From the NCBI GenBank assembly GCA_034696485.1, contig JAQIWT010000038.1, positions 1 through 49,248 on the forward strand: a stretch of DNA of 49,248 nt. Direction: 5' to 3'. Below are positions 5,085 through 48,938 of this stretch, piece after piece. This DNA is from Isohypsibius dastychi (taxonomy: Eukaryota; Tardigrada; Eutardigrada; Parachela; Isohypsibiidae). The position numbers and the translations under genes are program-made. How positions within the stretch are numbered: position 1 is the stretch's first letter; every line of letters begins with the position of its first letter. Under the pieces are notes generated by a model. The model was not told the DNA's origin, did not search any database, and saw nothing but the letters and a program-made list of their open reading frames with translations.

Positions 5085-7533
5085 ATGACAAAAGCGCATT
5101 TGTCCGTTTTCCTGCTTCACTTCTGCGGGTTGCTCCTGTCAGTGCATTGCAAGATTCCGAAAAACTGGTGAACCTATATTCCCAGTGATCTATATGAGAA
5201 GTTCAAGTACAAAGGCACGTCGTATTCCGCCAAGCTTTTTCAAGGCGACATCAAAGGAGTCGATCGAGAACATCTTCAAAGTGATGGATCACAAGGGCTC
5301 AACTCGGTTGTCAACGATCAGAGCAAACGCTGGGAAAATGGGGTAGTCCCTTACATCCTCAGCGAACTCTTCGAAAGTGATGGAAAAGTGTCGGAAAAGT
5401 TGACAATCCAGTTTGCCATGGATCAAATCTCAGCCAGTACCGCTAGCTGCATCACATTCGTGAAGAGAACAAAAGAGAAGGATTATCTTCATATTATCAG
5501 AGGACTCAATTGCTATTCCAGTGTAGGCCGGGAAGGGGGCAAACAATACGTCTCTTTCACCAGAGGATGCCTGGAAGAATTCGGCATGATTCAACACGAG
5601 TTATTGCACGCCTTAGGCTTCTACCACGAAAATGCACGGGCCGATCGTGACGAGTAAGTTCTGTATTTGCAATTACTTTTCTGGACTGTGTGTCCATTGC
5701 ACCCTGTGTTAAATTCGTTTTTCTAAGTGCAAGTATACCAGAATTTGGAGCACACATATTGTTAACGGCCGATTATACAAAATCATCTTGACCACAGGAT
5801 AACTTTTATACTGTAAACGATTACTGAGCATTCAGGCTGATGCCTGTTTCAATTGGAAAGGCCCAACCCACACAGTAACTGATAATCGGGTGACATGAGC
5901 GCGTGTAGCCGTCAAGATCCTGTCGTTCATTAGTTCCCTCGACGATTGCATCTTGCCGGCGAAATACTCTCGTCGAACTATCAAAAGGACAACAGGACCT
6001 TGACGGCTACAAGTGCCTCAACCGATGTTGTGGGAGTAGGATGAGTCTTGGTTTCACAATCACCCGACTAAGGATAGAATGTGGCATGGATAAACAGTAC
6101 AAAAGATATTCTCAGAAAATGCTCTGTAGAACCGCTTCTCAACCTGGAGAAACTCAAACTTATTTTTCCAAATTTCTCGAGTCGGGTGAAATGTAGCAGA
6201 AAAAGTCCTATGTAACAGCAATAGCATAATTTCTCGGATTTCGCACAGATTTTGTTTTCGAATTCCGAATTCATGTCCGAAAAGCTAGTATGAAGTGTGT
6301 TTATGGAACTCCATGGATTTACTTTACAGATACATTTGGATTAACTGGGAAAACATGCTGCCATCTGCCGAAACGGATTTCCGTATTCGCACCGACACTC
6401 TCACGTTTGGATTACCATATGACTATGATTCAGTGATGCACTACGGATGGAACGCCTTCGCTCGTGACAAGCTTACACCAACAATTGTTCCCAAAGAAAA
6501 GCTCCGACGGATCGGACAAACAGCCGGTCTCAGCGTTTTAGACGTCGTTAAAGTGAATAAAGCATACAACTGTCCTGGCGCTGACACATTGTTCTCCTCC
6601 AGTGGAGACCGGACACTTGGTCGGCAAATCGAAAAATCCGTAACCTTGCCGGTCAGGCAGCCAGTTACTTTGCCCATCAGGAAACCACTGACCTTGCCGG
6701 TCAGGAAACCAGTAACCGTGCCGGTCAGGAAACCAATAACCTCGCCGGTCAGGAAACCGGCATCTTCTCAAAGAGAGGTCAGGTTTCAGTTCCGTAATAT
6801 CCCAGATTCAGAATGTAAAGCACTGAATTCCGAGAGTTGTCACGCTCACGCTTATGCAGAATGCGGGAACGGTATAGTAGCATTTGGATGTGAGCAAAGA
6901 GCTTCAGAGCTTGAAGTCAGTTTGTACCTCGAGATGGTGCACAGAGCCCTGCCACTGACTCCATTGCATTTCGGACTGGCGGGAAAAAGAGCGATCACCC
7001 AAAAAATGCTGGCTCCGGCAGCTTCTAACATCATCGAATTTCAAATCGTCAAAGCTGACTGGTTTGACACGAAGGTCCTCAAGTCTATAACTCTGCCAAA
7101 TGTCGTCAATCTGGGATTCATAGGATGCAGCAATGTCATTGTTTCCCGAAACAGCCTTATTAAGTTCAGAGGGCTTTCGGTGCTCAAGTTTTTCAGTTCA
7201 ACTATTGCCTTCTTCGATGACACCACCTTGATGGATCTGCCCAGTTTGAAGCTTTTGGTATTGGACCGTGACCTTTCGCCAAACAACAATCGGCATCGAG
7301 AGCACCTTCAACGTCTGCATTGCAGTGAGGAATATTATCAGTTTCGAGAGCAGCTACGACAGAAGCCAGAACTTATTGAACCGAGGAGGGCTGGCTCGCT
7401 TTACAATATCGCTGGATCGAAAAACTCGGAGTGGAGCCGACGACAGATTTATTACCCAGTTGATTGCAGAAAACGTGATTTGACAGGATGGTGGAGCCAA
7501 ATTGAATTTTCACTGGGTGCTGACTTTCCGTAG
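5085..7533 (+). CDS. Astacin metalloprotease with C-terminal LRR-like domain, in-frame TGA after signal peptide
   Basis: Two exons, 5085-5653 and 6330-7533, give a 590-codon frame that contains one internal stop. Residues 1-22 are a signal peptide. The prodomain has the inhibitory-Asp motif (LFQGD). The catalytic domain has the complete zinc site HELLHALGFYHE (first His about residue 171) and the Met-turn SVMHY, so the protease domain itself looks active. After it come five tandem octapeptides (6640-6759), then about 230 residues with LRR-like spacing and conserved cysteines, ending near YYPVDC. The oddity is TGA at 5169-5171, directly after KNW, where the paralogue at 8209-9977 has WEEY. The stop separates the signal peptide from everything else. 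Possible explanations are a recent null allele, an assembly error or stop readthrough. The rest of the frame is clean, so any loss of function is recent. Astacins process matrix, cuticle or digestive substrates. Confidence 0.8.
5905..6010 (+). repeat. Long imperfect hairpin in astacin intron
   Basis: Within the 676-nt intron (5654-6329), a 41-nt arm at 5905-5945 is the imperfect reverse complement of 5970-6010, with a 24-nt loop. The outer 12 positions pair perfectly, then 6 more after one mismatch, and the innermost 5-6 also pair. A further TCGGGTGA element recurs at about 5886 and 6180, and inverted at about 6058-6066. This looks like a small inverted-repeat element, or a pre-miRNA-like fold. 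No known miRNA seed was recognised. Confidence 0.55.
6640..6759 (+). repeat. Five tandem 24-bp coding repeats (octapeptide linker)
   Basis: Five consecutive 24-bp units encode VTLPVRQP, VTLPIRKP, LTLPVRKP, VTVPVRKP and ITSPVRKP. They form a Pro/basic linker between the astacin catalytic domain and the C-terminal region. The paralogue on the minus strand lacks the array and has a short Ser/Ala/Pro linker instead, so the array expanded after duplication. Confidence 0.9.
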
Positions 7534-7561
7534 AATACGTTGGATCATTCGAAAGACCCGA

Positions 7562-7567
7562 AATAAA
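7562..7567 (+). terminator. Poly(A) signal of the first astacin gene
   Basis: A canonical AATAAA lies about 30 bases after the stop codon of the plus-strand astacin, a normal spacing for cleavage and polyadenylation. The stretch from 7534 to 8208 otherwise holds no supportable gene and is shared 3' space between two convergent astacins. Confidence 0.6.
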
Positions 7568-8208
7568 AAGTAACAAAATCAAGAAAAATTTGATAGATTC
7601 GAAAATTTCATATAATAAGGTCATTTTGTATCGTCTGGATAAATAGTCTAGGCGACCCAATGACTGGTCAAGTACTGAAACCAAGATCTGTTCGCTTTTC
7701 TTGCACTGAGTATTGTGAGCTTGAATAGCAGTTGGAATTAAAATAACATTCAAAAAATGATACGATACCAGTCGCAAATTATCAAAATCACGAGCAAACC
7801 TTACATTTTGCGGTCTAAGTGTTAGAGCACCCTATTAGTAAGAGCTCGCCAAAGAGCCAAATAGTGCGCGGATTTCAATTAGCCCAGAAACGATATTATG
7901 CTACATTTATCGAAGGAACGTATGCTGCAGGTCAATTAACCTTTAAAGGAATAATGCGATACATACGAATCAAACAGACAATTTCAATATCAGAAATCTG
8001 CGAAAGTAAAAATCATGCAGATGAAACAGGGTCTGATGTTTTCTCCTTCAGAACCGCACCCGCAATCACACCCATGGCAAAAATTCTGTTCTCTAGCTGG
8101 CGTACATCAAAAACACCGATAGAACTTTCATCAAAAACATTGAGGAAATTCGACACCATCGTTCAGGTTGGAACACCAGTGAATTCTTTTCAGATTTTTA
8201 AAAGGAAC

Positions 8209-9977
8209 TTATTCAGCATTCACGGAAAATTCGATCTGGTCCTCGCTTATCGTCAGATCATCTCTGTTACAGTCAACTGGATAATAAATCGTTCGTCTAG
8301 TCCAGTCGTTATCAGCGAGACGCCCAGGCGCCAACTTCAGCTCACTTGATTTCCTTGGCTCCAGCAGATTGGAGTTTAATCTGAAGAACGTCCGAAGCCA
8401 GGCATATTCTTTTTCGCAGTGAAAACGCATAAGATGGGATTTCCTTTCAATGTTGGAGAGTTTGCTGATCTCTCTATCGAGGGCAAGAACTTTTAACGCC
8501 GCGAGAGATTCAAAAGCACCCGGTTCAATTGATCGGACTGTCGATTGACTGAAGTACAAAACCTGGAGTCTCTGGAAAGACTTCAGACTGTTTTGTCTGA
8601 TTACGATTCCGCTTGACTTCGAAAAACTGAGTTCTTCAAGATTGTGGAACGGTGCGTCCTTGAATACATCACAATCAAAACCGTCGACTTCATCAATTCT
8701 CAGCACAGCCAGAATATCTTTAACCGGGGCGAAAATCTCGACTGTGGAGAATGGTTTTCTAGCCACAATTACTTCGATTGGGCTCGATGGAATGAGAGCT
8801 CCAAGCTTGACCATAAGGGATTTGATGTCCGAATCTGGCGCGGAAAAGCATTGAAAAACAAAGTTAAGATCCGGGCAATTGCTCCATGAAGCTTTATCAC
8901 AATGGTCGCTTTTCGCTGATTCACACGCGATATCGATCAACCTTCCTCGCACGAATTTTGGTGGGTCACGTGGTGACGCGGTAACTGGGCTGGAAGCCGC
9001 GGCAATTGGGCTGGAGGATCGGAAGTTATTCAGAATGGCCTTGTCCAGCGCTGAGAGCGGACATTCATATGCCAGTTTCAGCTTGAGCGCATCCAGAGAA
9101 CTCAGTCCTGCACTTTGCCCGATCATGGCTCCTTTTTCCTTCGGGGCGATTGTTGGAACGGAATTGTTCTTGGCGAACACATTGTGCCTACAGATCAGCG
9201 ACATGCAGAACTCACGTTAATTGACTTCGTACGAGCGCTCACCAACCTGTAGTGAAGAACGGATTCATAGTCGTAGGGAAGGCCGAAGGTTTTCACATCC
9301 GTTGGAATACGAAAGTCGTTCTCCGCGCTCGACAATAAATTAGGCCAGTTCATCCAAATGTTTTTATCACGGTCACTTCTGGAGTTCTCGTGATAGAAGC
9401 CAAGTGCATGCATCAGTTCGTGTTGAATTGAGCCAATGTCTTCCAAACAGCCTCTGGTTAAGGAAAGAGTCTGCTTCCCGCCATCACGTCCAACGACTGA
9501 GTAGCAGCCCAGTGATCGTACTATGTGGATGTAGTCGACCTCTGTTGTTCTTGGTATGAACTTTATACAACCACCGGAGGCTTGGTATATCTGAGACATG
9601 GCGATTTCAATCGTCAATTTTTCGGTCATCTTTTCCTCGCGCAGGTATTCAGCACTGAGTGTGTACGGCACCAGACCCCCCTTCCATCTCTTAGATTCAT
9701 CGGTGATTGCATTATTCATTCCAGCAAAGGTTCCTTTCAACGAACCTCTGTCGATCCCACTGATATCACCTATGAGAATTTTGATGGTTACACTGGTTTA
9801 AAACTTTCAGGCGAACTCACCTTGAAACAACAATGGCGAAAACCCATAGTCGCCCTTTTTTGCGTATTTCTTCAGCATTTCTGGCGCTATGTATTCTTCC
9901 CAGTTTGTCGGAAAGCTCACACAGAACTGTCCTGAGAAGTTCAGAATAACGAATACGGCCCATCGGAGATACATCAT
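8209..9977 (-). CDS. Astacin metalloprotease with C-terminal LRR-like domain, intact copy
   Basis: Three exons (9821-9977, 9247-9769, 8209-9187) give 552 aa with all phases consistent. The protein has a signal peptide (MMYLRWAVFVILNF...), a prodomain with FQGD, and the zinc-binding site HELMHALGFYHENSRSDRD. The Met-turn position reads SVLHY, with Leu instead of the usual Met, and the zinc-ligand Tyr is kept. The C-terminal half has LRR-like repeats (for example NLEELSFSKSSGIVIRQNSLKSF, cut here to LEELSFSKSSG) and ends in YYPVDC like its neighbour. It is the inverted tandem paralogue of 5085-7533, and the two genes are tail to tail. Its introns (after LFQ and within the SVLHYR segment) are absent from the paralogue, which has a single intron at a different site (after RDRDE). 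Secreted, probably active; substrate unknown. Confidence 0.88.
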
Positions 9978-27537: not shown

Positions 27538-28737
27538 ATGTGGTTGCTTCAGATCATCCATTGGAACTTTATTATCGGTTGTTAGCTTGTTGGTTGATCA
27601 TCTCGTATCACTGAGAACCCGTTTCAAAATCGCTTACTTCGAACCCTGATAATTCACTCATTTCAGGTGTGATTGGATTGGAATTTCCCGAAGGTGATGG
27701 CTGGAAGGAATATGTTCCCGAAGCTGATCGAGAGAGGCTGGCCAAGGCCGAAGTGCCTTCACAAGATCCAGTTTTTGGCAGCTCAGCTGGCAAACTTCCC
27801 TACCAAGCAGACCTGCAAGGATGCGACGCTGAAAATAAGTATCCGTGTGGGAGATGGCGAGCGAATGCCGATCAGTGGGAGTTTGACGCCAGAAGTTCAG
27901 AACGAAGAATCAGATACAAAATATCTGATGAAATCCCCGACGATAACGAACTGCCTTTACGCGGAACTATCGCGAGTGAGTGCAAAATGTGTTGCCCTGC
28001 TAAGTTACCATGAAGCATGTGCATATTGATATTGCAACAGAACCTTGTTTTCAGAACAACTAACGGCATTAGAATCCTTCACCTGCCTTAGTTTCATCCC
28101 GCTCGACTGGAACGGCGCAGCCGCAAACACTTGGCCAGTCATTTCTTTCACCAAGTCCAATAGCTCGAAGTAATAAAGAGCACAATACGCGTAGAGATAC
28201 TTTTTGATCAAGTTCAAGCTGACATACTAAACTTCAGTTTTCAGCTGCGTCGTGGATAAGAAGCTCTCAAGCAGCAATGAAATCAACATCTATATCAACT
28301 CTGACGACACATGTGGAATCACAGAAAACCAGGGTTTGGTTCTTCATTTCATCATGCACGCCCTAGGATTCCCCCATGAGCACATCCGCCATGACCGAGA
28401 TGAGCACATAGCCATCAACTGGAAAAACATTTTAAAAGGTAGAAATTCTCGCTGTTCGATTCGGTTCGTTGTTCGGAGACTGTATCTACAGTATGTAGGC
28501 AGGAGAAAAGACTTTGAAACCGATCCTCTTGACGAAGAGTACGATTTCCCGTATGATCATGGCTCAGTGCTTCATCCTCCCATCGATTACCTGGCGATGG
28601 ACATACGAATTCCAACTATATTAGCCAAACAGAAGCCCCCAGTGTCGGTTGGTCAACGAATGAAGCTCAGTGATATCGACCGACAAAAGCTCGTTCAGAA
28701 TTTCTGTCAAACGAGTTTATCGTGGAAAACGTATTGA
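27538..28737 (+). CDS. Astacin-family pseudoenzyme without catalytic Glu
   Basis: Five exons (27538-27577, 27667-27975, 28055-28169, 28245-28438, 28499-28737) give 298 aa with all phases consistent. The start at 27538 gives a signal peptide (MWLLQIIHWNFIIG). The prodomain keeps the GWKEYVPEADRERL segment seen in the neighbouring astacins, with YQAD at the inhibitory-Asp site. The zinc-site region reads HFIMHALGFPHEHIRHDRD: the catalytic Glu of HExxH is Phe, while the three zinc-binding His positions remain. The Met-turn SVMHY has become SVLHP, so the Met and the Tyr are both lost. It ends just after the usual astacin C-terminal Cys (KLVQNFC) and lacks the LRR-like tail. It is either a secreted non-enzymatic zinc-binding protein or an early-stage decaying gene; the intact frame and splice sites favour the first. 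Confidence 0.75.
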
Positions 28738-35396: not shown

Positions 35397-38350
35397 ATGG
35401 ATCCCCATATTCTCAAGTGAGTAATTTGCAATTCCCAGGATCGTGTTTCTCACGCGTTATATGATTCAACAGGGACCGCAACAACAAATGGCGTTTTCGT
35501 AAAATCTACCCAGGAAATCTTCATCTAAGTTCGCTCGAGCCCAATCCGTTTATTTCTCTCCCTGCTCCCAAACCCCAAAAGACAATTATTACTCCGGTGC
35601 CTTCGACGATGGACTCGTTTCGCAAGTACGAGGACAGCGTGAATGATGCGTGGTCGAATGATGAAGTAGAGGAATCTTCGAGCAGCCATAGCTCTTCTCG
35701 AGCGGTTCAGCCCCAGAATGGACGATATCCTGGTCATGGAGCGAATAATCGATTATCTTCGGAACATTTGAGAGCAAAGGGGTTGCAAAGGCTGGCGTTG
35801 CAAGCGGGAACTGGAGGGAAAGTGACACGGCCTGGAGTCGCTGTTCGTTCAACTTCGCATAATTCTGACGTGGCAGTTAATAAGGTAGGATTATTGTCGA
35901 CGACTCACCTACTTGAATTGAATAAAAACAGAGTTTAACGTTATTTTTGGGCTGGGCAAATGTACTTTTTGGATGAGCAATTGTTTTGAAGAGAGAAAAC
36001 TGTTTTATTTTCATTCACCACAAATTGTGGTGAATGAAATTGTGGTCCACAATCCCCCAAATTTGTTGGGCGGTTGGTTTCCGGTTTCGCAAATGAGTCT
36101 CGCTTGAACGGTCGGTTTGAACTTAGAATGTGCCAAGTTCGTGGAACCTTGAGACGTAGAGATACAGAAATTCTAGCAACATCCTAGGAATTTATGTATT
36201 TAGCAGTTTCAGTTTAATCGGAGGTATTTCCTACAGTAATTCCGGCTGGATGAATTTATGCTAGCACACATTTTTGCGGTTTTATTAGGTGAATAAATTG
36301 TCTAAATACCTTAAGATATTTTGGGATAAATGTCATTTGTTACAGCTAGAAAACAATTTACAAGTTTAGCACTTATGCAGCCCGATGAATGTCAAGATAG
36401 GTGGTATTCTTTTTTTTTGCCCGCGCCTTACAAGTTGAATTGCTGATGAAAAAATACAGCGGTGGTTTTACAGGAATATTCCACAGAGGTTAGTAATGGT
36501 GAGCTGTGTCAAGTGATTATTTGAAATATTGACCGAATTATCAATATCATCAATATCGATTATCAGTAAATGTATGTTCTCCGGCTTCATATATCAGATT
36601 CGATTCCTGTGAGACATTCCTGTTCAGACATTTGCTTGGAAGTTCTTGCAGAACCCAAGGTTTTCGTGGATACTTTTTGCTTGATAACATGTTGTTTCCT
36701 TCTCCCAGATGTCAGGAATTAACGATCCTTCCAACTTCCTATCTAACTCCCACTCCGCATCCCTCGCTTTCCTCCCACGTCAAACACAGAAGTGTGACAA
36801 GTTCCACAAGCTGCTCGGCGAGAAGATAATCGACATGGAGAATTTGCGCAAGTTGAGCTGGTCCGGAATCCCGATGGAACTTCGTGGTCGGGTCTGGAAA
36901 TTGTTATGCGGATATGCTCCACCGGTTGGAGATTCCAAAAAATCACGGGAGACGATTGAGCGGAAGCGGGAGGAATATAACAGTCTTGTCAGCGAATATT
37001 ATCCGAAAAGAGAAGATGAGCAATATAAAGACGCCTTTCGCCAGATTCACATTGACGTTCCCCGGATGTGCCCACTGGTACCTCTTTTCCAGCAAACGCT
37101 GATCCAGGTAAAAGTATTTTGTGACACAGACTGTTCAAAAAGACATGTTTCAGGGTTTGAGGAAATTTTCTTCTCCTGTTATTTGGTTTCCCAAAAACGG
37201 CATTTTTGAATTAATTTAGTCTTGCCAGATCTCGCCGTATTCATTTGTTTATGTTCCAAACGTTAGTCTGATTATCGAGATCTTAAGGATCAGTTATGTG
37301 TCAAAATATTGTCTTTCTTTCAGGAGATTTTTGAGCGTATTCTTTTTATTTGGGCACTTCGGAATCCAGCTAGTGGCTATGTTCAAGGAATCAACGATCT
37401 GGTCACTCCGTATTTTCTTGTGTTTCTTCGTGATTACATTCCTGCGACGGAAAGTCTGGAGTCATTCCAGCTGGATACACTTCCGGCCAAACAGATCGCC
37501 GAAATAGAAGCCGACTGTTTTTGGTGCCTTTCTCAACTTTTATCATCTATTTTGAATAACTATACGTTCGCCCAGCCCGGAATCCAACAGCGCGTTTTGC
37601 AGCTTAAAGATCTCATACAGAGGGTAGGTTCTTTTCTTTCTTGTCTTGGGTTATTTCCCGAAAATTACCAGAATGGCAGAAGAATAAGTATATTGCAAAA
37701 GAAAACGTTCGGCAAAACGAATTTTTTCATGATCAGCTAATTTCAGTAGTAACAAATTTGTTGTCAACTATTTTTTTCAGCATTACTTTGAAACTGTATT
37801 TTAACTAAATTTTCGAAGAAAAGTTGCGTCAACCAGTTTTCTTCTGTTTGGTGAAAATTTCGATTATTACGATTATTATGATTATTCGAAAATTTCGATT
37901 ATTTTTCGAAAATTACTAATAATCGCAAACAAATCGGGTCAGCTGGTTTTCTCAATCATCTGTGAAAATTTTGTTTGTTTTTTTCTTCAGGTTGATAATG
38001 ATCTGCATCGACATTTGGAAAAGTGTCTGGTGGAATATCTACAGTTTTCTTTCCGGTGGATGAATAATTTATTAATTCGTGAGTTGCCGTTGAAGTGCGT
38101 TATTCGCCTTTGGGATTCCTACCACAGTGAGCCGGACGGATTCGCCAGTTTTCATGTTTATGTCTGTGCGAGTTTTCTCCTGTGGTGGTCGGAAGATCTG
38201 CGCAGCCAGCCTGACTTTCAGCATTGTTTATTACTTTTACAGAATTTACCAACTCAGAGTTGGAACGAAGACCAAGTTGAGCGGATTTTGGCAAAAGCCT
38301 TTATGCTCAAGTCTCTTTTTGCTGATGCTCCTAAGCACCTCAAATCTTAG
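35397..38350 (+). CDS. TBC1D22: TBC1 domain family member 22, Rab GTPase-activating protein
   Basis: Five exons (35397-35416, 35473-35884, 36709-37107, 37324-37623, 37991-38350) give 496 aa, against 505-517 for human TBC1D22A and TBC1D22B. The family is Golgi-associated, binds ACBD3 and 14-3-3, and stimulates GTP hydrolysis by Rabs. Support: an N-terminal KWRFRKIYPGN like the vertebrate FWKR...LPGS start, then LRKLSWSGIP opening the TBC domain. The arginine-finger motif IHIDVPR and glutamine-finger YVQGINDL are both intact, so it should be an active GAP. FAQPGIQ, FRWMNNLLIRE, IRLWDSYHSEPDGF and a conserved C-terminus (FADAPKHLKS) complete the match. The 20-nt first exon is inferred from phase and from extension of homology upstream of the ATG at 35609. 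One gene represents both vertebrate paralogues. Confidence 0.95.
36009..36039. repeat. 31-bp near-perfect palindrome in TBC1D22 intron 2
   Basis: Arms of 15 nt (TTTCATTCACCACAA and its complement) surround a single central base. It lies in the 824-nt intron between 35885 and 36708. Possibly the remnant ends of an excised element. Confidence 0.75.
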
Positions 38351-39205: not shown

Positions 39206-42200
39206 ATGACAATGTTGCTTAGACTATCTGTGCTTTTCTTCATTTCCATATCCAGTATTTCATGTTTTCTATTACGCTTCCCGCGTCCCGGATCGGATAA
39301 CTCCTTCCAAAACTGTTCCTCGCCAACATATCTTGCGGAATACAACTGCCCATGCAACAGTTTCGGTCAGCCGTGTAAAGACCCTAATGTCATTTGCATC
39401 AAACAAAGCGAGCCAGTCGGCCACAATGGAATTTTCGAGGGGCTGTGTGCTTGCAGAACGGATGCAGAAATTTTCATTCATGGTAGATGTCAGCCTTTTA
39501 ATCCAGACTTGGCCACCACGAACCCAATCTCCGAAGCGACAGAGATGACCCCGGTAGCACCTTCCGCATGCCGCACGACCATCATTCAAGAAACCCAGTG
39601 CTTCACAGGATGCTCGTCGAACTTGAGAAATGCCAGCAGCATCCCGATTTGTCAGGCCTTATGTCATAACGACTGTCTGCGGTCCGGCAATCCTGTATGC
39701 TGCCAGCTTAAGCCAGTATCAATCGGTTCAGTTCACTGCTGTCAAGTGCGAGATGTCCTAACGCAAACAGAATGCAGCAAAGCCGCGGTTACGGAATATA
39801 ACTGTTTCGCCGGATGCGCTGGTCAGCCAGTTAGCACAAAGGATATCTGTCAACGGCAGTGCAAAGCTGAGTGTTTGACCTCTAGCTGCGAAGAATGCTG
39901 CCCGGCTTACTATCCCAGTGTTTGTGGATCGGGAGTTGTGTCTATTGGTGACTGTTTGGTGAGTGCGGCCATTGAGCTTGACTGTGGTGACAGATGTAGT
40001 GGCGCGAATAGTGTCGACCTTGCGTTGTGCCAAAGTACATGCCACGAAACTTGCTTAGCGGATACTTGTGCGTTTAAGCCGGAGACCAGCTGTGATGCGG
40101 TGAACTGCTGTCCACTAACTGTTCCGACATTTTGTGGTGATCAGGCGATTTCGGCTCGAGCCTGCTTCAACGCCAGAAATGTCGTAGCAGTATGCATCCA
40201 AGGGTGTGCCAACTCAAATAGTTTGACTCAGTTCATCTGCACGGAGAAATGTCAGGCTTCGTGTCTTGGATCGACATGCTCTGAATGTTGTCCCGTGACG
40301 ACGACTGGTCCCCTGTGCAGTGGCACAGTATCAGGTAACAAGCCAGAACCCGGCCATCTCTGGAAAATTGACATAATCTTTTACAGTATCGCAGTGTTTC
40401 CAAGCTGAGCGGGATGAAGCAGCTTGCTTCGATACCAACTGCCCTTCGACATTAGATCCTCTCCCCCGAGCTAACTGCCAACGCAATTGTCATTCAACCT
40501 GTTCAACTATCACATGCTCATCATGCTGCCCACGCAGTGATCCAACATTATGTGGAACGCTCGCGGTGAATGTTAGTCAATGCGGGGTTTCAGCAACGAC
40601 ACAGGAAGCTTGTTTCGGGGCATGTGCCACCTCGCCACCATTTCAAGTTGCGAGTTGCTACTCATCCTGTCAAACATCATGTTTGTCAGGAACTTGCAAC
40701 GACTGCTGCCCGCCTGCATCAATTCCGACGTTTTGTGATCCAGCGAAGGAAGCGGTTACCGCAGCGGAGTGCGCTGGTGCTGGCAGGGACGAGACTACAT
40801 GTTTTCTCGATTGTATTCTGACTGCAACAATCCCATCAACGTTGGCTCTGTGCCAGAAGTCCTGTAAAACACAGTGTGAAACTACGGCTTGTCCCGACTG
40901 CTGCCCCGGTACCATCAACACATTTTGCACACCGAAGACCATCACAGGTAACGCTATTCAGTGACTCAGAGGTCGTAAGTGAAAAGCAACTGCTTGATTC
41001 TTTAGGCACCCAGTGTTTAGACGCCAGACTCAAAGAATATGAGTGCTATGACCTCTGCCCATACCCAAACACAGTCCCTGCAACCAACACCACAGCACTT
41101 GTCTATGCAAGCTGCAAGCGAAACTGTAGGGGCATTTGCATCCAAAGCGCCTGCACCACTTGTTGTCCAGCTGCGGCCCCCGAACTGTGTGACGGCACCA
41201 TCGACCTGAATGACTGTAATTCTTGGGCGCAGATCGAAACGAGTTGCTACACCGGGTGCAGCGGAATTGGTGTTGTGCTAGCAAGATGTTTGCTCACCGA
41301 CTGTCAACGGCCATGCCTCCAGCTGGCATGTCCGGATTGTTGCCCTGTGCCCGTTCAAAGTGTCTGTCCAGCAGTCAGCGTATCAGCTCCCGCCTGCATA
41401 AATGCCGATACTCATGAGCAGGCATGTTTTATGTCCTGTTTGGCGCTAGGCAGCCTCCCGGCTCAGAGGTCCTGTGAGCAAACCTGCAAGAACGTGTGCA
41501 CAAATACCACATGCAGCGAATGCTGCACAAGCATAATCCCGACCATCTGCACTCCAGCAATTTCAGGTACATTTGTTTCTACGAAAACCTACCTACTAAG
41601 GAATACGAGTTCTGGTTGACCTTCCAGTATCACAATGTTCGGCTGCGGAGCAAAAAGAGAAAGAATGTTTCGCAAACAACTGTCCGGCAACCCTGGGCCC
41701 ATTGAAGCGGGCTGAATGCCAAACATCATGCCACACTGAATGCCTCACATCTTCGTGTGCAGAATGCTGTCCGAGTACGCTGCCGATAGTGTGTGGTTCA
41801 AACGCAATCAGTATCAATCAATGCAGTACAGCATCAAATGATCAGACCTTGTGTTACACTACACAGTGCACAGGTGTAGTACCGTATCAACAGGCCACAT
41901 GCTACGCTGGTAACTGTCAAGTTGCTTGTCTGAGCTCTACATGTAACGATTGCTGTCCGGAGCCACCAGCAACTTTCTGCAATGCCACATCGAAGAAGGT
42001 CACTGCATATGAGTGCATGTACGCAGGTAGCAACGAGACATCGTGTTTGGCGAGCTGTCTTCAAACGCCAGCCATTGCCACAGCTCTGTCAATCTGTCAA
42101 CGTGCCTGTAAAGTCAGTTGTGAGACCCGAACGTGTTCGGAATGCTGTCCAGGAATCGTGAACACATTCTGCCCGTCGCAGCTGACAGGTAACGAAAGGT

Positions 42201-45200
42201 CCTTCTGAGCGTTGGTAAACCTGGAACTAACCTTTTGTGTTAGGACTGGCATGTTTGGATGCTGGACAAACCGAATGCACCTGCTATGACCAGTGTGCTT
42301 CAGCAAATACGACAGCATTAGTCACGGCTGATTGCCAGGAGACTTGTCATGAAACATGCGAATTCACCACTTGCACCACCTGCTGTCCGGCGGCTCTGCC
42401 CAAACTGTGTGGTAACACAGTGACCGTTGATGATTGCAGAAATCATGCTCTAGGGGAAATAAGTTGCTTTGCGGGATGTTCGGGATCAGGATTCGTGCTC
42501 GCCAGCTGTCTCATAACCCAATGCTACACACCATGCCAGCTGACTAGTTGCGACGATTGCTGTCCCCCACCAAATCAAATATTTTGTGGTCCGGCTGAAA
42601 TATCAGCGTTGGCCTGCCTGGAAAGTGGATCGAAGGAGAATCAATGTGCGACGAACTGTCAACAGATTGTTGACTCCGTTTCTCAGGCCATCTGCCTCAA
42701 TGTCTGCAAGGAAAACTGCGAAATCGCAAGTTGTGTGGAGTGCTGTCCTCTTGTGGTCCCCACGTTCTGTGCGTCACTTGCTACAGGTAGGTTGTCATGA
42801 CTGATTAAGACTGTGAAATCATTTTTTTCTTTCTTAAGGTCAACAGTGCCTTACTCGCCGGCTGGAAGAAGCGACTTGCTATGATCAATGTGCACAAACG
42901 ACAACAGCTCCATCAGGAAATACAACCGCTCTGGTCACTGCACAATGCCAGAGGAACTGTCACGGCAACTGTATCGGTATCACCTGTCTTACCTGCTGCC
43001 CTGCTACCATACCAACACTGTGCGACGGAACAGTAGCGATTGATGACTGCAATGCTCGTGCTCTCCTCCAAGCCAGCTGCATCGCTGGTTGCACAGGATC
43101 TGGTTTTGCACGGGCCAGTTGCTTGTTCACTCAGTGTCAATTACCCTGTCGTGACGCCACCTGCGACGACTGCTGCCCGTCACTTGTTGATGTGTTCTGT
43201 GGCCCAGCTAGCGTATCCCCTTCGATTTGCGCTGAAGCAGGGCTGAAAGAGAACAACTGCGCGGCAAATTGTCTCACGCTCAGCGAGCCTGCATCGCAAG
43301 CTGTTTGCCTACAAGTGTGCAAAGACAGCTGCGTGTCTGCTGCTTGTGACGAATGTTGCCCGCTGGCAGTCCCCCAGTTCTGCACTCCTGCAAAATCTGG
43401 TAAATTTTTTTCCTTCATGATCTGAATGAGCTGAATTTTGTAGCCCTGGCGTTTTCAGGTACGGAATGTCTAAGTAGTACACTGGAAGAAGCAAACTGCC
43501 TCGATCAATGTGCTCAAATTATCGCGGCGCCAGCTGGAAATACAACTGCTTTAGTTAGAGCGCAATGTGAAAGAAATTGCCAAGGAACATGTGTCACAAG
43601 CACGTGTGCAGCCTGCTGCCCGGCTACCTCACCCCGGCTCTGTGGGGGTGCAGTCACCGTTGATGACTGCAACACTCAAGCAACAGCACAGAATGGATGT
43701 TTCTCGGGATGTACGGGATCAGGATTCCTTCTAGCACAATGTCTGACCACTCAATGTCAAGCAATCTGCCAGCAGGCTTCCTGCGATGATTGTTGCCCTC
43801 CCCCGACCAACATATTCTGTGCACCGACGACCGTATCTGCCCTGACCTGTGTCGAAAGCGGCCTGAACGAAGAGCAGTGTGCGGCGAGTTGCCAAGCTAT
43901 CACCGAGCCAGCATCCCAAGCTGTCTGCCTTCAAGTTTGTAAGGACAGCTGTGAGGACGCAGCTTGTGGAGTGTGCTGCCCTCTGGTGGTTCCTACATTT
44001 TGCACACCAACAAAATCTGGTATGAACGCTCCTGCACAGTCTAACTACTGGACTATTCTTAGCTTTTTCATTCGTAGGTCTGCAATGTCTGAGCAGCACA
44101 CTCGAGGAGGCTGACTGTTCTGACCAATGCGCACAAATAAATACAGCGTCTTCTGGAAACACGACAGCCTTGATTGAGGCTCAGTGCCAGAGAAATTGTC
44201 ATGGAGCTTGCGTCAACAGTACCTGTGCACCTTGTTGTTCATCGACTATACCCACTCTTTGCGATGGAGCTGTGACAATCGACATCTGCAATTCACGTGC
44301 TGTGACTGAGACAAGCTGCTTCTCCGGATGTAATGGGTCTGGCTTCGCGCTTGCAAATTGTTTGACTACCACATGTCAGACACCATGTCTACAGGCAAAT
44401 TGCGACGATTGCTGTCCTTCGCCAACCCATACATTCTGTGGCGCTTTGGCATCAGCTCAAGTTTGCTCGGCTGCGGGGCTAAGAGAACAGCAATGTGCTT
44501 CGAACTGTCCAGTAACCACCGACCTGTCGTCCCGAGCAATATGCCTGCAGGCCTGCAAGGATAGCTGTGTGACCGCATCTTGCAGTGAATGCTGCACCAT
44601 TGTAGTACCCGCTGTATGCAGCTCAACTCGAACCGGTACACAATAACCGTAATTTCACATGTCGACAATTTGGGTGTACACAGATCTGATGTTTGCAGGT
44701 CGTCAGTGTCTAACCGCTACATTGACAGAAGGGACATGTTACGACACATGTGAGCAGATAACATCATCGCCAGCAACAAACACCACCGAGCTCGTGTCCG
44801 CTAATTGCAAACGCAATTGTCATGGTAATTGTGTCGTATCAACTTGCGCCGGCTGCTGTCCTGGAACGACAGCGACTCTATGCGATGGGACTTCCTCAGT
44901 CGATGCATGCAACACCAGAGCGCAGACCGCAACCTCGTGTTACCAAGGATGTACCGGATCTGGCTATACACTCGCTAATTGCCTAGCCAATTCTTGTCAA
45001 AAACCTTGTATTACCGCATCGTGCGATGAGTGCTGTCCGCTTCCCGTTTCCACTTTCTGCTCAGCAACAGTCACAGCTTCAGTCTGCGCAACGGCCGGAG
45101 TCAAAGAAGCCGCATGCGCTGCGGGGTGCACTCAAACAAATGCACTGGAACAGGCCATCTGTCGACAAGCATGCAAATCCAGCTGCACGACAACAACATG

Positions 45201-45837
45201 CACGGAATGTTGCCCTCTTGCCGTTCCGGTGCTATGCGGTGCCAAAGCGGGTAATATTCCAATTCTGCCCACTCAGATCATTGACCTCATAGTTTGAATT
45301 GCAGTTTCAGTCAGTACTTGCTCCGCGGCTGAAGCTAGCTTGTCAACTTGTTACAGCAACTGTGTGAGCACGAGTCCAACTGATCCCACCGCACAGTTCA
45401 CCTGCCAAGAAACATGTCGCACTAACTGTCTTACAGCTAACTGTGGCGCGTGTTGTCCGGTCCGTCAGCCAACGACTCTATGTGGTACAGTAGCCACGAC
45501 GGCTACCGTAAATAACTGCGTTGCCAAGCGGACAACGCAACAGACCTGCTACACGAACTGTAACGCAGGAACGGGTACTTCTATTTCAAAGCTCATCTGT
45601 CAGATATCACAGTGCAGAGCAGCCTGCATAACGTCAACCTGCTGTGACTGCTGCCCACAGCCCACTCAACTATACTGCACGTCAACAAAGGATGCGGAAC
45701 AATGCTTGAATGCGTATTATCAGGCAGTAGCGTGTTATAACGTTTGCCCCGCAGCCACGCTGGCTAGTTGTCAGTTCGCTTGTCGCAACACTTGCGTTAC
45801 CAACTCTTGTGCTGCCTGCTGCCCACTGCTGGTATAA
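39206..45837 (+). CDS. Giant secreted cysteine-rich tandem-module protein
   Basis: Ten exons (39206-40334, 40387-40947, 41006-41566, 41628-42188, 42244-42786, 42839-43399, 43459-44019, 44078-44635, 44699-45250, 45305-45837) give 2,039 aa. A signal peptide (MLLRLSVLFFISISS) is followed by an EGF-like Cys segment and then about 31 modules of 55-62 residues. The module pattern is C-x7-9-C-x3-C-x8-16-C-x3-C-x3-C-x4-C-x2-C-C-P-x5-7-C, ten cysteines each (near 300 in all). Typical pieces are CSECCPLVVPTFC, CDDCCP and GCSGSGF. Every internal intron is in phase 1, and every internal exon encodes exactly three modules; five exons are exactly 561 bp. NTT sequons recur in the first module of many exons. 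I do not recognise the family. Secreted extracellular-matrix, cuticle, mucus or egg-coat roles are guesses. It ends at TAA after ACCPLLV with no membrane anchor. Confidence 0.88.
40387..45250 (+). repeat. Tandem exon repeat: eight three-module units of 543-561 bp
   Basis: Exon lengths are 561, 561, 561, 543, 561, 561, 558 and 552. Two sub-types exist. Exons starting at 40387 and 41628 resemble each other (QCFQAERDE/QCSAAEQKE starts, ending GTINTFC/GIVNTFC). Those at 41006, 42244, 42839, 43459, 44078 and 44699 share NTTALV-type first modules and GCxGSGF second modules. The pattern implies one duplicated two-exon block followed by serial single-exon duplications. Confidence 0.85.
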
Positions 45838-47806
45838 TTTTCAAAAGTAATGGCTTGGTGACTTTGCTTGCTGGCTCCATAGGACATCCCACTTTCGAGA
45901 TCCACATGGTTTCGTTCGGTAGAGCCGGTGCCAACTGGATTGGTTTAGATTAAAAAAATTCGTTCCATTTAACATGTCGTCTTATGTAACTTCTTCGGCC
46001 TTGTTTGCGGGTTATCGGAACGGCGGCGCTCTAGCTTTCATATGAAATTCGTGGAAAATTGGAAAATAGATGTCGCTCTATACTGGCGCTGACATGATCA
46101 CAAACGTCGACGATACTGAAGTAGGTAATTTGATTTCTTAGTTCACGTACAATACGCCCCATTCGAACCAGGAATAGAACAAAGCAAAAAAAAATCTGAA
46201 CGAAAGAAGGTGATGGTATTCATTGCAAGGAATGCTGTCAATCGCTGGAGCAGTACGATTAATCTCATTGTCATCCCGTAGTTGGTAACAGACCCCCCCC
46301 CCCTAATATGCAAAACTAAGCCGAGCACACGGCACGCTACAGTCGTTTCTTGAAACTACCAAAAAACGTCAGCCTTATGGGCCTGATGTAGATTTCTTTC
46401 CAATGGAGAAATACATTGGTCAACGTGATCTGACCGGAAGTCAGCAAGTCTGTCCATTTGCGAATGCATCTGCAGCGATGAAAATCACACATCGCAGAAC
46501 GTAGAGAAATTTGCAGTTCAAGCGCATTACGTCATCAAACGTTGTTTAAGTGATCCACTACCCCATGTCTCAACGAAAATTGCGGGAGATATGAATCGAA
46601 GCATCACGAGCTGGCTGGACCAGCAATGCGTCATGCAGATTTAGCACCTTAAGTTGTTGTGGGACGTTTTGATTGGATTTTTAGATGATTTGACAACATT
46701 TTATTTTAGTGATTAAACACACAAACTTCGATCTTCGATCTTCGATCTTCGAGGTGTTTGGCTTTTGAGTCTGAGTACTTGTGTATGATTTGAAACCCTT
46801 GCTCAGCCCCCTCCCTGTCAGTCTGGGGGTACGGTAAAGCTGGGCATTGAAAGAGAGCGAGGGAGACTGAGTGAGAGACACACAGACGGAATACGGTATC
46901 GACAGACGGTATCGATTCTATTTATAACCTTGCTGACCACTAGAGCACGTGTTCTAGAGACTGGGCATCCACCACGGTAGGCGTGAGAGCCAGATAGCAA
47001 AATCCACTAAATCAGTATTTCGTGCATCTGGGCATCAGAGGTGCCACATTCCTGAGTAGTTATTCCGCGCCCTGGGAGTGGGAAATATCTCCCACTCACG
47101 ATTTCATTCTGGTCGCCTTCGTTTCATATGGCGGGAGACAGACGCGTAAATTATCATAACTTTACAGAGTGTCCAGTTTTTCTAGGTAAGATGTGAAACT
47201 ACGATTATCAGCCCATATAGCTATGAGCTAACCACATCGCACTCCGCTGCGCTCCGCTCCATGTGGATAAATCGGCGCACTTGTGCCCTCAACGAAATTC
47301 GGTCATAACGGTATGCTTTATCGTAACGAACTCGTATCAGATTGAAACAGGTTGAGGTTGAGTGTTGCTGTGGTGGTCGGGTAAATTCGTTAAAATGGAC
47401 AGGGGGTATTCAGAAGCTGAACTGATGTGCGCTGGTACCCCTTAATCTTGTGCTTTATCTTAGAGGGGGCGGGGGTCGAATGATGTCATTTGCGCGTGTG
47501 ATAGATTTTGTTTTGCTCAAATTCGCCATTTTTCTTGACAGACCTTCATTCAGCTGCTGTATCCGTCATCGTGTTTCCACCTTTGCTACCGTGAATATTG
47601 TTGTATTGCTGTTGTGTGCAGCACCTGAGAGGTGAGTACATGTTGTGGTTTGACGATGAGGAAGAGTATTCCTGCGAAATTTTCAAGCTTGAAATCCCGA
47701 TCTGAATCGTTTTCTCGGGTTTCGACGATCTCATTTCTCCACATGTCTGATTTATTTCTTAGTTCCAGAACTTGGTTTTTACAAATTGCTTGTTTCTAGG
47801 TCTACC
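45838..47806. other. Intergenic region with tandem and dispersed repeats
   Basis: I see no firm gene. At 46726-46753 the heptamer CTTCGAT is repeated four times and flanked by short AAACAC/GTGTTT complements. A run of 11 C is at 46293-46303, and a GA-rich stretch is near 46850-46890. A dispersed repeat related to 10575-10680 is at about 47236-47350. A likely 5' exon of the MATH/BTB gene ends at a GTGAGT donor near 47631. Its frame (including NIVVLLLCAAPER) continues in phase into the ATG exon, so the true start could be upstream. Confidence 0.45.
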
Positions 47807-48938
47807 ATGGCTGCTATTGCTGGTTCGTCCAATAATCAGATGGTGACGAAGGACAGGAAATGTTTCTCAAAGGAATGCAGCCTGACGCTAAACATTCCAG
47901 ATTTCTCCGCAAACAAGAATCGAACGGATCTTTTTGAATGCAAGAAGAGCTTTCATGAGCTTGGTGTGGGACCGGAAAAGGACCGCTTCTGGGCAGTCAG
48001 TGTGAGACCCTTTTACCGGGGTCTCCCAGATGGCCAAACACGTGGTTACAAGCGAGATTACATTTCGGCTACAGTCGATCTTCACTGCGAGTCAGGAGTA
48101 AACATTCATGGTAGCTACAAAATAAGGCAAGTCGGTTCTACATTGCTGAAAATAATTGTGACGTTTGTGGTCGAATTTCAGCTTAGTCAAAAACAACGCG
48201 ACGGAAGTTCCAATTGAATACCAATTTTGGGCACCTTTCATGCGCATAAAAGGTGGCTACAGTTCCTGGATATCTCACAGCCTTGTCGAACATGATAAAC
48301 TTAGCAAGAGCGGAGTTCTGGAAGACGGTTGCTTGCGAGTCAGAGTGGATATTCGCTACTCGGAAGTCGGAGCTACCGATAATCTCGCGATGGAATATGT
48401 GCGTGAATTGTTGTTCACGGGAGTTAATAGTGACCTGGTTGTAATGTCGTCGGACGGCGAAGAGTTTAAAGTTCACAAGTTCCAGGTTGGCCTTCAGAGT
48501 ACCATCCTCAAAGAGATGATATCAAAGATGCCAACGCGGGAAGGAACACAAAAGTTGGAAATTGATTTTAACGCGGACATCACATGGGCAATTCTGAAGT
48601 TTCTCTATGGTTTTCCTGATTGGATGCCACCCGCACCCGCTCTAGAGTCGCTCTTGACTGCCGCAGCGAAGTATGACATCATGTTTCTCAAAATTGAGTG
48701 CGTGCAGAAACTTAGGGCTGAGATATCCATCGAGCGTGCGGCGTCGTTGTTGAAGCTCGTCCATGATCACTCTGTGGATACACTGAAAAGAAGCGTTCTG
48801 GAGTTCATCGCAGGAGATATTGAGGAGTTCAATATCGTTGGCGGTTTTGAGGAGCTTGCGTCTGAGAAAGAACTTATCCGGGATATTAAAGATGCCTGCG
48901 GTGAACGAAAATCCAAGAAGCTGATAGTCGCTGTTTGA
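47807..48938 (+). CDS. MATH/BTB-like protein, probable Cullin-3 substrate adaptor
   Basis: Two exons (47807-48126 and 48182-48938) give 358 aa. The N-terminal part (about residues 1-165) resembles a diverged MATH-type beta sandwich (FWAVSVRPFYRGL and an ISATVDLHCES strand). Then comes a BTB/POZ domain opening with NSDLVVMSSDGEEFKVHKFQV, followed by a BACK-like helical region (LLTAAAKYDI, IECVQKLRAEIS, AASLLKLVHDHSVDTLK). Proteins of this shape, such as SPOP/roadkill, recruit substrates to Cullin-3 ubiquitin ligases. The intron uses a GC donor (AG|GCAAGT) and a normal TTTCAG acceptor; only this choice keeps the frame. The ATG at 47807 follows an acceptor at 47799-47800, so an upstream exon exists and may add coding sequence. 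MATH assignment is moderate; BTB is strong. Confidence 0.8.

Follow-up and report, generated by a model that had tools for sequence, protein, structure and literature searches.

The window, that is, the whole stretch of 49,248 nucleotides of Isohypsibius dastychi DNA that was analysed, carries on its forward strand, at 39206-45837, a single gene (C38) that splice modelling resolves into 10 exons separated by nine GT-AG introns of 52-63 nt each, all nine in phase 1; the model is a scored search across GT-AG introns, and its score also rewards Cys codons. The earlier note correctly read one large product here, but the size it gave, 2,039 aa, becomes 2,037 aa in the splice model. The protein contains 321 Cys (15.8%), 11.7% Thr, 11.1% Ala, 9.0% Ser and no Trp, has a pI of about 4.5, and carries 14 N-glycan sequons. 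The features of the locus are as follows.

39206..39277, + strand: predicted signal peptide of about 24 aa, a hydrophobic leader (top hydropathy window of the protein; the cut site is a guess)
39314..39490, + strand: N-terminal 8-Cys domain, residues 37-95 (alignment and own-genome search; no Pfam match)
39206..40334, + strand: exon 1, with the leader, the N-terminal domain and modules 1-4 (splice model, module profile)
40387..40947, + strand: exon 2, three modules (A, B, C), phase 1-1 (splice model, module profile)
41006..41566, + strand: exon 3, three modules, phase 1-1 (splice model, module profile)
41628..42188, + strand: exon 4, three modules, phase 1-1 (splice model, module profile)
42244..42786, + strand: exon 5, three modules, phase 1-1, an extra Cys in the first of them (splice model, module profile)
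42839..43399, + strand: exon 6, three modules, phase 1-1 (splice model, module profile)
43459..44019, + strand: exon 7, three modules, phase 1-1 (splice model); the search query and alignment reference
44078..44635, + strand: exon 8, three modules, phase 1-1 (splice model, module profile)
44699..45250, + strand: exon 9, three modules, phase 1-1 (splice model, module profile)
45311..45837, + strand: exon 10, the final three modules and the stop, the last module without the tenth Cys (splice model, module profile)
45949..45954, + strand: ATTAAA, a possible polyadenylation signal about 110 nt 3' of the stop (consensus match only)

The protein is probably secreted, as had been proposed: the leader holds its top 19-residue hydropathy window (2.06), and the next best window outside the leader (1.74) lies within a Cys module. 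Elsewhere in the window, an exon of a TBC-domain gene (36688-37737, + strand; Pfam) lies upstream of C38, and an exon of a BTB-domain gene (48162-48935, + strand), by eye of the MATH-BTB type, lies downstream, as does a short repeated run of TTCGATC units seen by eye at 46720-46755. An astacin metalloprotease exon was identified at 28231-28734 (+ strand; Pfam E 3e-21), and astacin-like frames were noted by eye on both strands at 5172-9797. The neighbouring astacin, TBC and BTB domains agree with an animal source. In the partial assembly of 30.4 Mb, searches for the COX1, nematode cuticle collagen and Chitin_bind_4 families gave no match, though for the latter two the controls were silent as well; the candidate telomere repeat reported for Hypsibius (PMC5531438) has 0 matches there, weak evidence either way on the tardigrade origin guessed at in the earlier note.

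A profile search finds 31 modules in the C38 protein; the profile was built from 28 modules of the window, so that 28 are found by construction and three are additional. The cysteines of the module (C1 to C10) are strictly spaced: the expression C-x9-C-x3,4-C-x7..18-C-x3,4-C-x3-C-x4-C-x2-CC matches the protein 27 times and none of 2,000 residue shuffles. The C-x2-CC motif occurs 29 times, followed by P in 26 cases, and the C4-C9 tail C-x3-C-x3-C-x4-C-x2-CC is found in exact form in 21. Most of the 28 aligned modules have C2-x3-C3 and C4-x3-C5, and the rest have x4 on one side or both. From the last Cys of a module to the first Cys of its successor, the distance is 7-9 across the nine exon junctions and 8-11 at 19 sites within exons. 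Because this spacing is alike at the junctions and inside the exons, the repeat crosses the introns in register, and exons 1-10 thus belong to one gene. The ten-Cys repeat described in the earlier note, with its high Cys content and strict spacing, is therefore borne out, with all 31 modules in one gene.

Exons 2-10 each encode three modules, about 187 residues, and exons 2-9 have a phase 1 intron on either side. Among 26 modules of exons 2-10 (exon 1 and the final module of exon 10 being excluded), identity at non-Cys positions is 0.31 within the positional classes A, B and C (100 pairs) versus 0.16 across classes (225 pairs; 200 once same-exon pairs are dropped), a difference reached in none of 2,000 permutations within exons. 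Modules in the same place are thus alike across exons, which indicates that the copied unit is the three-module exon; judged from these comparisons, the growth unit is the three-module phase 1-1 exon. For exons 5-9, in the nine of 10 pairwise comparisons that were printed, protein identity is 51-62% and dN is 0.28-0.45; dS is incomputable in eight of these pairs, which is taken as saturation, and 3.23 in the ninth, a pattern read as constraint. In six of the nine exons 2-10, the stretch from C3 to C4 of the first module holds an NTT sequon. The gene grew by duplication of this exon of about 187 residues, flanked by phase 1 introns, in which the loop of the first predicted hairpin often bears an N-glycan site. 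An array at the DNA level was rejected, with no tandem repeat reported by Tandem Repeats Finder at periods up to 500, a limit that the exon unit exceeds.

The supposition that the module belongs to no named domain agrees with the Pfam searches: the 10 exons matched no family at E up to 10, and in single scans of 28 of the 31 modules, five families matched one module each, none significantly (best E 0.035, Keratin). EGF, TIL, chitin-binding, VWC and other known domains were rejected on these grounds. One of the five, C_tripleX (PF02363), which we take to be a Cys-rich repeat with a C-x3-C-x3-C run like that of the module, matched only one of the 28 modules, at E 0.12, and scored below the curated cut-off, as did every other Pfam-A model. 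The N-terminal domain, searched against Pfam in five versions, gave just two chance-level matches (E 0.11 and 0.14); in its general look it is presumably similar to EB-like or EGF-like 8-Cys domains with C-x1-C pairs. Protein database searches, which covered proteins of 0.55-1.75 times the query length, returned nothing at E up to 10 for the whole protein (3,946 candidates) and nothing for 14 aligned exons (3,438 candidates). A control search with the BTB-domain exon of the window was empty as well (none of 609 candidates at E 0.001), so that these negatives say nothing on lineage restriction. With one exon as the query, one stretch of viral contigs and 16 stretches of prokaryote genomes were matched, none of them a relative. 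In a literature search, no description of this ten-Cys module was found among the papers listed, judged by titles and abstract openings; the available excerpt of PMC3459984 deals with other proteins.

The module recurs within the same genome. The search covered a partial assembly (30.4 Mb in 1,648 contigs) with single-protein queries, and the family counts are lower bounds. Apart from C654, a multi-exon gene with at least 22 modules at E up to 0.01, the following members were located.

L033:2626-4147, - strand: one of the paired genes C64a and C64b (contig C64), seven modules (own-genome search, profile)
L033:4890-6391, + strand: the other gene of this pair, seven modules (own-genome search, profile)
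L034:4927-7416, - strand: gene C49, 830 aa in one open frame, no intron, 11 modules
L034:1029-2374 (beside gene C49) and L039:3258-4140 (contig C1540), - strand: decayed copies of the C49-type gene
L036:3429-4949, + strand: C1458 frame, with the N-terminal domain, two modules and a Ser/Thr/Pro/Gly-rich stretch
L038:2182-2733, + strand: C1123 frame, in which a copy of the N-terminal 8-Cys domain (E 0.001) and a stretch resembling a leader were seen

The N-terminal 8-Cys domain is common to C38, C654, C49 and C1458 and, weakly, C1123, in which no modules were seen by eye; it is missing from C64a and C64b, which are arranged head to head with about 740 bases between them. The modelled introns are in phase 1 in C654 (six, in an imperfect splice model), C64a (one) and C64b (two, with an uncertain 3' end of the gene). 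The single-frame C49 gene, in contrast to multi-exon relatives at other loci, may be a retrocopy that stayed open. Two further matches, C1244 (E 1e-9) and C886 (E 1.2), correspond to no clear family frame among the frames listed. C1458 is probably membrane-anchored, with a hydrophobic segment (hydropathy 3.03) close to the N-terminus of its frame. Such an anchor, in combination with the Ser/Thr/Pro/Gly-rich stretch, the N-terminal domain and only two modules, would suit a family of cell-surface or soluble ligands or receptors with partner-binding modules, in which the large size of C38 would be incidental. However, C1458 is the single such member seen and its start is not established, whereas a leader opens the other members, in which no such anchor is visible by eye; we consider this reading very doubtful.

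The first nine cysteines of the module are nearly invariant across the family: among the 80 modules scored of 87 aligned (decayed C49 copies were excluded, and C1 was scored as present in one module whose local alignment did not reach it), six lack at least one of them. In three of these, two cysteines are missing together, namely C2 and C5 in gene C49 (784-829), and C3 and C4 in C1458 (355-403) and C654 (1517-1552). In the first modules of genes C38, C64a and C64b, C7 alone is absent, with no partner loss among the first nine, probably through one inherited loss. The excluded decayed pieces include one without C2 and C5, which probably received this loss from the C49 gene, and another in which only C7 is missing. 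Under random loss, the three double losses were reached in 310 of 200,000 shuffles, in a test that was chosen after the losses were seen and rests on three events. According to the available excerpt of PMC7191063, alpha-hairpinins consist of two helices with one C-x3-C each, linked Cys1-Cys4 and Cys2-Cys3. The paired losses, C2 with C5 and C3 with C4, correspond to these two links, which argues that, as far as sequence can tell, every module most likely contains an antiparallel helical hairpin pinned by disulfides. The helices C1-x9-C2-x3-C3 and C4-x3-C5-x3-C6 would then pack antiparallel in each module, with C3-C4 pinning the hairpin close to its turn and C2-C5 doing so a further helical turn out, and the tail C6-x4-C7-x2-C8C9-P, together with C10, would brace the hairpin and lead into the next module.

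The alpha-hairpinin-like core, C-x3-C, loop, C-x3-C, is present in all 28 aligned modules, with x3 or x4, and the Cys motif of this core is also alike to that of kappa-hefutoxin-like peptides, which are helical hairpins with C-x3-C ... C-x3-C. No significant sequence match to either group was detected, and alpha-hairpinins are small four-Cys peptides, whereas the ten-Cys modules occur 2-31 in tandem in large proteins. To our knowledge, helix-based disulfide repeats of such length are unusual. Searches of the PDB by sequence gave no significant match (best E 0.34, 0.54, 1.5 and 1.1); with E up to 10 allowed, the module profile matched only Tk-hefu-11, presumably a helical hairpin, at a non-significant E of 0.54, in an alignment that covers the same four cysteines, C2-C5. 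Antimicrobial action and trypsin inhibition are among the roles of alpha-hairpinins, and those of scorpions and cone snails block channels. The shared four-Cys core and predicted connectivity, together with a hefutoxin-named peptide as the only PDB match, could indicate that the C38 protein is a precursor, or a multivalent string, of hairpin peptides that would serve in defence, as inhibitors or as toxins, much as alpha-hairpinins do. This alternative is rather unlikely: the protein has no furin-type site and only six dibasic pairs in 2,037 aa, which argues against peptide release from a precursor, a regularly sized linker that bears Cys connects its modules, across exon junctions too, and its pI is 4.5. 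The regular linker and the missing furin-type site led us to reject the precursor reading.

After removal of the first 26 residues, the mature Cys counts are even in C38 (320) and C49 (116); that of C64a is odd (71), perhaps because of an uncertain 3' end. A metallothionein was rejected by reasoning from the leader, the paired Cys losses and the even Cys counts in two genes.

The second half of the module invites comparison with the cysteine-rich domain of minicollagens, given as CX3CX3CX3CX3CC in an excerpt of PMC4863159. In the parts of PMC4863159 and PMC4195985 that were available, these domains are described as polymerising via disulfide reshuffling in nematocyst walls, and the cnidarian protein NOWA as having several domains of this type (PMC4195985). 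The module tail and the minicollagen domain share six cysteines within about 18 residues and a CC end, mostly followed by P in the module; the module differs in having x4-x2 in place of x3-x3, in the lack of collagen, and in that its tail sits within a ten-Cys module. Three modules of gene C49 come closer, with a tail spacing of x3-x3-x3-x2. As judged by spacing, the tail resembles the minicollagen domain but is not a member of that family. A crosslinking matrix protein that polymerises by interchain disulfide exchange via the CC-P tail, in a minicollagen-like manner, would fit the closeness of the C38 tail, exact in 21 cases, to this pattern and the spacing of the three C49 modules. However, the exact minicollagen pattern is absent from all eight family sequences searched, two of them decayed pieces, the C38 protein has no Gly-X-Y run of four or more, and intermolecular exchange is not something a sequence can reveal, so that we regard this alternative as unlikely.

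Altogether, C38 and its relatives are a real, well-formed repeat family absent from Pfam, with a predicted helical-hairpin core. The reading that we favour, and hold to be moderately probable, is that of a large secreted disulfide-locked structural protein, a string of 31 hairpin modules that grew by exon duplication and serves in an extracellular coat. The leader, the even Cys counts in C38 and C49, the length, the glycan sites, the lack of a furin-type site and the probable membrane-anchored relative all fit a structural coat protein. Such a coat, the most likely place of service, could be a cuticle, the envelope of an egg or cyst, or some other secreted matrix; only secretion, size and Cys content tie the family to it, and the stiff polymer, the desiccation or protease resistance and the cuticle, cocoon or egg-shell role suggested by the earlier note would likewise be conjectural. 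A bolder version, which appears rather improbable, is that of a new animal extracellular domain that would combine an alpha-hairpinin-like hairpin with a minicollagen-like CC tail, occur up to 31 times in a string, be docked to cells by the membrane-anchored relative and form a coat, crosslinked by disulfides, that arose in convergence with the wall of the nematocyst.

No new principle is shown here, and the family is of interest primarily to specialists in the evolution of the extracellular matrix. If the coat protein reading is right, the family offers a testable disulfide map and a clear mechanism of growth through phase 1-1 three-module exons, and one exon of 186 aa lends itself directly to structural and materials studies. 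A module outside Pfam would then be added to the means by which animals build tough extracellular material.
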